A stretch of DNA of 64,000 bases from Bdellovibrio sp. NC01 (GTDB lineage: Bacteria; Bdellovibrionota; Bdellovibrionia; Bdellovibrionales; Bdellovibrionaceae). The stretch covers positions 620,001 through 684,000 of the forward strand of contig NZ_CP030034.1 of the NCBI RefSeq assembly GCF_006874625.1, read 5' to 3'. The notes beneath the pieces were generated by a model. That model was given only the letters and a program-made list of their open reading frames with translations, searched no databases and had not been told where the DNA came from. Within the stretch, counting starts at the first letter, position 1; each line of letters opens with the position of its first letter. Of this stretch, positions 21,923 through 62,650 are shown one piece after another. Position numbers and translations under genes: made by a program.

Positions 21923-22080
21923 GGTCATTTAGGGCAAGGGTCCCTGGTGAGGGCTTTAGCTCTGGGACACGCCATCCAGGCTCTGCCGTCGCCCGCCTTT
22001 GGCGGGTTCGCGCCATCGTGGCGCCGACGGAGGTCCCTGCCGCTAAATCCCTCCCCAGAAACCCTCACCCTAAATGACCC
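21923..22080. repeat. Structured palindromic repeat, copy A
   Basis: Outer arms 21923-21960 and 22042-22080 are a 38-bp inverted repeat with six mismatches, both ending in TTTAGC/GCTAAA on the inside. Within: GGGAC 21964-21968 with GTCCC 22033-22037; CCGTCG 21986-21991 with CGACGG 22025-22030; hairpin CCCGCC-TTT-GGCGGG 21992-22006; hairpin GCGCCA-TCG-TGGCGC 22010-22024. Four of the six arm mismatches become G-U pairs if the minus strand is transcribed. Copy B at 61278 has the same plan. Confidence 0.85.
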
Positions 22081-60946: not shown

Positions 60947-61083
60947 CGCCAAAGAGTGAAATTGCCCCAACCTTCAAGGTAAAAACTAATTTGCTTTAGC
61001 TCACGTCGGAACACTTCTTGAATCTTTAAGCGGCAGTGACACCTCACTTCGAGGTCCGTCCGTCTTAAGACAAGGAGGATTTT

Positions 61084-61251
61084 ATGGCTATCGACAAAAA
61101 TGAGAAAGAATCCCTCTCTCACAAAGTGGGCGATAAAATTGAAAGAGCCGGCCAGAAAATTTCTGAGAAAGCGCCTAAAACTGGCAAAGCTATCTATGAT
61201 GCTGGCGATAAAATCGAACATATGAATGACAATAAGAAGAAAAAAGTTTGA
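61084..61251 (+). CDS. Fifty-five-residue charged helical protein
   Basis: A small ORF: MAIDKNEKESLSHKVGDKIE is followed by RAGQKISEKAPKTGKAIYDA and GDKIEHMNDNKKKKV, so the G-D-K-I-E segment occurs twice. AAGGAGG (61072-61078) stands 5 bases before ATG 61084, which is excellent. It is highly charged, with an amphipathic pattern and a Lys-rich end. The size, strong binding site and internal repeat argue for a genuine gene; it could be a stress or desiccation protein like CsbD/LEA-type peptides, but no family is recognised. Confidence 0.78.
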   Translation: MAIDKNEKESLSHKVGDKIERAGQKISEKAPKTGKAIYDAGDKIEHMNDNKKKKV

Positions 61252-61513
61252 TTCAGTAGATCGGTAGTAATGCGGGGATTTGCGGGAGAAGTTAATTTAA
61301 CTTTAGCTTCTTCGGCACGCCTTCCTGGCTCGGTCGTGGCCCACGAGCCTTTGGCTCGCGGGTGCGCGCCATCGTGGCGCCCACGAAGGCCTCATGCGCT
61401 AAAGTTAAATTAACTTCTCCCGCAAATTTTGCCTTCGACGGATCTGGTGGAATTTTTTTTCTTTTATTGGTTGGGTGTGTTGGTTTTGTAGCGCTGTTTT
61501 TTTTCAGCGTTTT
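61252..61513. other. Intergenic region between convergent genes, carries repeat B
   Basis: No gene seen. The repeat copy B occupies 61278-61427; the remaining 86 bases to 61513 are AT-rich with T-runs (61450-61518) that could help end transcription from the left. Confidence 0.6.
61278..61427. repeat. Structured palindromic repeat, copy B
   Basis: Outer arms 61278-61307 and 61398-61427 are a perfect 30-bp inverted repeat. Inside: TCGTGG 61334-61339 with CCACGA 61381-61386; hairpin CGAGCC-TTT-GGCTCG 61344-61358; hairpin GCGCCA-TCG-TGGCGC 61366-61380. As in copy A the second hairpin abuts the right strand of the central helix, and the inner ends read TTTAGC and GCTAAA. The arm sequences share nothing with copy A beyond that end. 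Confidence 0.9.
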
Positions 61514-62650
61514 TTATTTTTGTAGGAGTTTTATTAGTTCTTCTTTGTGGGATAGGCCGTCTTTGCGGCCTATTTCTATTAGGTCGGCGCAGAAGGTTGG
61601 TTCGAAGAGTAAATAGCTGATTAGTTCGCTGGCGTCTTGGAGGGAGCCTAAGCCCTTCAACAGATAGCGAACGACTCTTGGGAGTTTTTGGGCTTTTTGG
61701 ACTGCCATTTCGCCGATGTCTTCGGATGGAGAGATGAACAAATGGTCAATGGGTCTTAGAGAGACTGCTCGTTGTTGTTCTGGTGGGATGGCGATGGCGT
61801 AGTCGTTCAGACGACGTAATCTTTCGACGTCTTGTTCTACCGCGTCCATCAGTGCACCGTTTAGAATTGTGTTTACGACTCTGGCTACGCTGGGAGCTGT
61901 TGCGTATTGAGCGGCTCTTTGTTCGTAAGCTGTTGTCGAAGATTGTAAGCGTACGCCGATCACTAATAATTTTTCAGCACCAAGATAAATCACCGGGCTG
62001 CATGGGGCGTGATTGCGGATGGCGCCGTCGCCGAAAAATCTGTCGTCGACTTTTACTGGCGGGAATAGCAATGGAATTGCTGAAGAGGCCATGATGTGAT
62101 CTGTAGAAATTGTTGTGCGTTCGCTGCGCTTGCGACCCTTATCCCATGAAGGCAAAACGTTTTTGCCTTGGATAAAAGTTGTCGTTGCAGATTTTGCGTA
62201 ATCAATCGAAGTAATTGCTAATGCTGTTAAATGGCCGTCGTCGATATTTTTTTCGACTTTGGCGTAATCCATATTTGAATGAATCAATTGGCGAAGGGGA
62301 GCCGTATCCATCAACGCTTTACCGGGAGTAGTTCCCGTCATACCGCCTAAAGATAACTCACTCATCCATTGCAGACCAATTTTTCCCATCGTCATTGAAT
62401 CCGTGGAAAAAACTTTTTCGAAAGAAACGTCACTCCAAAGTTTCGCGAGTGATTCAGTTGCAACTTTTAAGTTATCGGCATTGGAAGCAAGTGAACTTGC
62501 ATTGATCGCACCGGCACTGACACCAGATAAGAAGTCATACTTGACGGGAACACCGGATTTTTCGCTGATTTCTTGTACGGCTGCAAGTACACCGGCTTGA
62601 TAAGCACCGCGGGCTCCGCCACCAGATAAAACCAGTCCCATTTTCTTCAT
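61514..62650 (-). CDS. Patatin-like phospholipase
   Basis: A 378-residue hydrolase with Ser-Asp dyad. LVLSGGGARGAYQAGVL is the oxyanion G-G-G-x-R/K, DFLSGVSAGAINA is the nucleophile elbow G-x-S-x-G (Ser near 46) and FFGDGAIRNHAP is the D-G-A/G with the catalytic Asp. It has no signal peptide, so it would cut host or own phospholipids from inside or leave by another route; patatin enzymes of predators may attack prey membranes. GGAACA precedes ATG 62650. Confidence 0.93.
   Translation of the reverse strand: MKKMGLVLSGGGARGAYQAGVLAAVQEISEKSGVPVKYDFLSGVSAGAINASSLASNADNLKVATESLAKLWSDVSFEKVFSTDSMTMGKIGLQWMSELSLGGMTGTTPGKALMDTAPLRQLIHSNMDYAKVEKNIDDGHLTALAITSIDYAKSATTTFIQGKNVLPSWDKGRKRSERTTISTDHIMASSAIPLLFPPVKVDDRFFGDGAIRNHAPCSPVIYLGAEKLLVIGVRLQSSTTAYEQRAAQYATAPSVARVVNTILNGALMDAVEQDVERLRRLNDYAIAIPPEQQRAVSLRPIDHLFISPSEDIGEMAVQKAQKLPRVVRYLLKGLGSLQDASELISYLLFEPTFCADLIEIGRKDGLSHKEELIKLLQK

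Follow-up and report, generated by a model that had tools for sequence, protein, structure and literature searches.

What kind of element places two perfectly complementary arms between the ends of two convergent genes, and what keeps these arms paired? The question is raised by a locus in the window analysed here, a stretch of 64,000 nucleotides from Bdellovibrio sp. NC01 (contig NZ_CP030034.1, positions 620,001 to 684,000), for which a preliminary description had proposed an element, copy B, with 30 of 30 bases complementary in its outer arms. Positions 61278-61307 and 61398-61427 are indeed fully complementary across a spacer of 90 nt, a perfect inverted repeat of 30 bp with a spacer of up to 200 nt being expected approximately 1e-11 times per 64 kb of random sequence. 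Folded as RNA, 61270-61435 reaches -92.3 kcal/mol (z = -8.9), and none of 200 shuffled sequences folded as well.

Anatomy of copy B and extent of the family

As to its surroundings, copy B does lie between convergent neighbours, as previously claimed. On the plus strand, gene calls based on coding score place a 55-codon open reading frame (MAIDKNEKES..., 61084-61251), preceded by AGGAGG at 61073-61078, that ends 20 nt upstream of the 5' foot of copy B, which is oriented in sense behind the 3' end of this frame. On the minus strand, the neighbour is a patatin-like gene (61514-62650) with orthologues in the genus, the name reflecting a GGGxxG...GxSxG-type reading of the sequence rather than a family search. 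In 11 relatives possessing a patatin-like orthologue (71-77%), the neighbourhood of that gene is not syntenic with the copy B locus and is without the element. Downstream of copy B, a possible intrinsic terminator, weak with its 5-bp stem, can be read on the plus strand at 61490-61515 (CGCTG ... CAGCG, then T6).

The element itself consists of a foot, a stem and a head, all on the plus strand. The 5' foot, GCGGGGATTTGC (61272-61283), is made of k-mers common to many copies in this genome whose arms are otherwise unrelated, and its pairing, written as GCGGGGATTTGC / GCAAATTTTGC with G.T wobbles, continues beyond the ends originally quoted; the 3' foot, GCAAATTTTGCCTTCGA (61422-61438), is likewise common to many copies. 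The 5' arm (61278-61307) is a locus-specific stem strand of 30 nt, and the 3' arm (61398-61427) is its perfect complement. Between them, folds, alignments and covariation define a conserved head (61308-61397) comprising an internal loop TTCTTC/TCATGC, a helix (61314-61316/61389-61391), a small hairpin (61319-61329), a stem (61334-61339/61381-61386), a variable hairpin at about 61340-61361, and a conserved hairpin GCGCCA-TCG-TGGCGC (61366-61380). The claim that the inner plan is that of copy A (21923-22079, plus strand) is borne out. The covariance model described below matches copy A at 21944-22058 with 96.6 bits and copy B at 61292-61413 with 110.7 bits. The core had also been suggested to switch between two folds, and this is not supported. 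A hairpin of TCGTGG (61334-61339) with CCACGA (61341-61346) is impossible, with one base between the two, and when CCACGA is forced to pair with the other TCGTGG (61372-61377), the resulting fold is 4.6 kcal/mol worse, with a probability of about 0.001. Moreover, of the 16 copies aligned first, only two, copy B and one other (L008), have CCACGA inside the variable hairpin.

A BLAST search with the head of copy A retrieved 16 copies in this genome, and a covariance model built from these retrieved 26, along with 2-30 copies in 21 of the 23 other genomes of the genus (up to 31 when selected genomes were searched again). Outside the genus, traces were detected in only five of 116 further genomes of the family and order. 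The genus set includes two genomes that we take to be Bdellovibrio bacteriovorus HD100 (G005) and Tiberius (G002), and the coordinate frame of G005 is supported by a c-di-GMP-I riboswitch match inside the published HD100 merRNA coordinates. In Rfam, the 701-nt region of copy B has no match at gathering score (one sub-threshold match, 16.5 versus 86 bits) and the HD100 loci have no match on the element, while PLSDB and INPHARED hold no match to the element as plasmid or phage cargo. Pattern matches in two viral contigs were rejected as G+C-rich sequence that does not follow the further plan of the element. A pattern scan of named genomes gave 12 matches, mostly in unrelated genomes and probably due to chance, one of them, in a Bdellovibrio metagenome-assembled genome (JABWCO010000040.1, L019, ~940-1015), being a partial match to a relative of the head that is either incomplete or diverged. 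A literature search found no paper on palindromic repeats of Bdellovibrio. The hairpin repeat family is real, genus-wide and undescribed, similar to REP/BIME in placement and different from them in size, head and stem behaviour.

All copies follow one plan, in which the foot is joined by a stem of 25-30 bp whose sequence is particular to each locus and by a conserved head. The head is built of short helices, which folds and alignments order as closing helix, small hairpin, stem, variable hairpin and conserved hairpin. In an alignment of 50 head copies, drawn from 20 genomes, 91.3% of the cells are paired and both sides have changed in 25 of 32 pairs, with 403 double-changed cells versus 137 in shuffles and a covariation score of 0.569 versus 0.155 in shuffles and no more than 0.198 when the register is slid; head changes are both-sided, with almost no one-sided ones. 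Two further observations concern head variety. A second head subfamily, CACGGC.TCCTGCCTC, is represented by five copies in this genome (L048-L052, G000). A nested mini-element, about 66 bp long and composed of two hairpins, GGGCTCCTGCCC and CAAAAATAGCATCCTGCTATTTTTG, lies within head hairpins of some copies (L296, L299, L300, L301, L304, L307, L310, L312, L280) and also occurs in terminator-like hairpins elsewhere (L295, L303); it is present in 13 of the 24 genomes of the genus, this genome having none.

Turnover of the stem

The 13-mers that copies of this genome have in common come mainly from the foot, so the stem arms are specific to each locus. Left arms score a median of 35 against the reverse complement of their own right arms versus 8 with swapped partners, the median hairpin span being 220 nt. 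Within three sets of closely related species (G001/G018, G011/G022 and G002/G005/G023), most copies occupy orthologous sites, with 22 and 23 pairs orthologous on both flanks in the two main species comparisons. Some of these orthologous copies are identical, some combine the same stem with another head (one example is G001_C3_211824/G018_C8_331743, among others), and some share flanks and head and possess another stem. In 16 orthologous pairs the left arms are dissimilar, in eight of them nearly to the random range, and in all 16 the complementarity of the arms within a copy (27-29) exceeds that across copies (8-10).

Between orthologues, species-level counts, made on aligned fast-changing arms and including related copies more than once, give 193 both-sided stem pair changes, 15 single changes via G.T and 121 pairs broken in one partner. 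Of the both-sided changes, 109 fall in runs of two or more and 90 are of the transversion type, unreachable through G.T. Single-sided changes and mismatches also occur in the stems: in well-aligned arms of close orthologues, A.C outnumbers G.T among single changes (32 to 11), while in stems overall G.T is the more frequent (379 versus 226). The ratio of 193 to 15, the transversions making up about half of the double changes, and the excess of A.C over G.T are unlike what would be expected of RNA selection acting via G.U intermediates, and the pattern fits template switching in which one arm is copied from the other. Template switching is known to make and repair hairpins and has been inferred for rRNA stems (PMC8794818). 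Perfect arms had been taken as a sign of recent formation, but arms have been repeatedly re-paired in place at orthologous sites. What the stem inherits is complementarity rather than sequence, and this is the most interesting part of the system.

Placement, transcription and mobility

The placement of 166 copies was analyzed against coding-score gene calls, which only three copies overlap. Among the 142 copies with both neighbours assigned, 69 (49%) are at convergent and five (3.5%) at divergent sites, versus 20 (22%) and 27 (29%) of 93 intergenic regions overall, and at convergent sites the copy is nearer to the sense stop codon in 62 of 69 cases (p = 4e-12). In about 60% of the copies, the 5' foot abuts, in sense, either the stop codon or the terminator T-run of the upstream gene. 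Fifty-five copies start directly behind the stop codon; in a far class, an intrinsic terminator lies between stop codon and element in 36 of 43 copies, shuffled sequence giving none. The two docking points share the same offset, the model start being 19-54 nt from the stop codon or 27-66 nt from the T-run, and the foot lying about 20-45 nt further out than the model start. Distances on the antisense side are broad, and 38 copies (~23%), situated between two opposite-strand genes, do not follow the sense rule. Inverted pairs of copies 200-600 bp apart are also observed, often where genes converge and with each copy in sense to its own gene, examples being G000 588959+/589357-, G001 C19 154728+/155169- and G006 3431386+/3431698-.

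The position between two convergent gene ends had prompted the suggestion of a bidirectional terminator, which the data do not support. The hairpins are followed by no U-tract (3.46 T per 10 nt versus a background of 3.50), separate terminators follow 25 of the 166 copies, in addition to those preceding the far-class copies, and one copy is transcribed through. The latter lies in the attack-phase-specific APsRNA6 of HD100 (1,338,787-1,339,441, plus strand; PMC3627812), which includes a plus-strand copy (1,339,140-1,339,255) and ends within its inverted partner (1,339,416-1,339,488); as the transcript runs past the plus-strand copy, that copy is no end for it. APsRNA6 also holds a 92-codon open reading frame for a small membrane-like protein (L288 514-792; G005 1,338,813-1,339,091), and given this frame it may be an mRNA, with the element possibly in its 3' untranslated region.

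As to mobility, we infer it from copy number and spread, and the earlier notion of a non-autonomous mobile element remains plausible in this respect, but sites in close species pairs show no clean target-site duplication. No transposition event was directly seen among the occupied and empty sites compared, and sites not shared by close pairs are mostly deletions leaving remnants of the arms, or replaced regions. The sole clean empty/occupied pair (G001_C1_119993 versus G018), compared without an outgroup, has TATTTT at both ends, and deletion explains this repeat as well as insertion. Of the 26 copies in this genome, 10 are matched in another examined genome by an element that follows the same neighbour gene, so that part of the set is old and many copies are unshared. 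A RAYT-type gene had been proposed as a partner to look for. Eighteen of the 24 genomes carry Y1_Tnp genes, without linkage to the copies: the nearest is 2.1 kb from a copy and the others, among those measured, are at least 12 kb away, four genomes with no Y1_Tnp match possess 6-19 copies, and Y1_Tnp number shows no significant correlation with element number (Spearman 0.32, p = 0.13).

Competing explanations and known systems

On balance, we lean, if only slightly, toward placing copy B in a family of long-hairpin repeats found across the genus, REP/BIME-like in their position at gene 3' ends and probably non-autonomous, whose stem is kept by template switching. Stem complementarity would be maintained chiefly in the DNA, where template switching during replication would copy one arm onto the other, and the head would be held by selection or by recombination among copies. 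Copies would spread rarely as a non-autonomous repeat; behind transcription units they would be tolerated or retained, and palindrome deletion would remove them. Transcription through a copy would produce an RNA with a very stable 3' hairpin. A bolder version, which we regard as rather unlikely, is a new class of mobile elements that dock at the 3' ends of transcription units, with a stem devoid of fixed sequence, its complementarity inherited via template switching, and a head that travels or is converted.

A possible, though doubtful, alternative is a functional RNA at mRNA 3' ends, a hairpin that would stop 3'-to-5' exonucleases or influence ribosomes at the stop codon, RNA-pairing selection keeping the stem. 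Sense orientation, the closeness of the foot to the stop codon (a few nt) in the 55 directly docked copies, the copy within HD100 APsRNA6 (in the frame checked by the merRNA riboswitch) and the overall excess of G.T over A.C in stems all speak for such a role, but the terminator preceding the element in most far-class copies means that these would seldom be transcribed from that gene, close orthologues reverse the G.T excess, and half of the double changes bypass G.U. The preponderance of convergent over divergent sites, together with palindromes that persist with complementary arms free of fixed sequence, would also suit a DNA structure at the ends of transcription units, such as a cruciform or a candidate site for gyrase or a nucleoid protein. 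It would manage the supercoiling that arises where genes converge, a role proposed for BIMEs; sense orientation and docking by the 5' foot only are unexpected of a symmetric DNA device, and we consider this explanation improbable. An intrinsic bidirectional terminator would likewise be positioned behind genes and between convergent ones, but the background T content after the hairpin, the separate terminators before 36 of the 43 far-class and after 25 of the 166 copies, and the continuation of APsRNA6 beyond its plus-strand copy make it very improbable indeed.

The preferred reading, of a REP/BIME-like repeat with a template-switched stem, bears on the old puzzle of how long perfect stems keep pairing via compensating changes. 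With each genome carrying dozens of copies, at sites orthologous between close species, and with whole stems turning over while still paired, stepwise compensation and template switching become separable by counting, making the family a natural test bed for long-stem evolution. For the model predator Bdellovibrio, it is also a repeated feature, in part transcribed, that Rfam does not contain and that literature searches did not turn up.

Among known systems, the REP/BIME sequences of E. coli, Pseudomonas and Stenotrophomonas are similar in being extragenic palindromes, in many copies, at gene 3' ends and in opposite-orientation pairs, and in that other small insertions target them (compare PMC1525189). 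The REP/BIME-like character originally claimed stands as a resemblance (extragenic, palindromic and multi-copy, at gene 3' ends, with inverted pairs in some cases), but membership is not supported. REP/BIME are 20-50 nt long and occur in hundreds of copies, whereas the family here measures 150-220 nt (copy B ~150-170 nt), with 26 copies in this genome and at most 31 in any, and it differs in its unconserved, locus-specific stem sequence, in its multi-helix head and in the lack of a RAYT adjoining the copies. As to the GTAG-type tetranucleotide at the foot of REP sequences, GTAG, by eye, precedes GCGGGG in some copies of this genome (G000), not in others or in other species. MITEs are also short, non-coding, palindromic and dispersed; unlike in MITEs, the locus-specific arms leave no conserved terminal inverted repeats, and one TATTTT repeat is a candidate for a target-site duplication. 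The RNA hairpins maintained by template switching (PMC8794818) share multi-base compensating stem changes, consistent with one-step copying of an arm, but those are short stems in rRNA genes, whereas here a dispersed repeat has stems of 25-30 bp that turn over completely between close species. Finally, APsRNA6, published as a single sRNA (PMC3627812), contains one member of this hairpin family.
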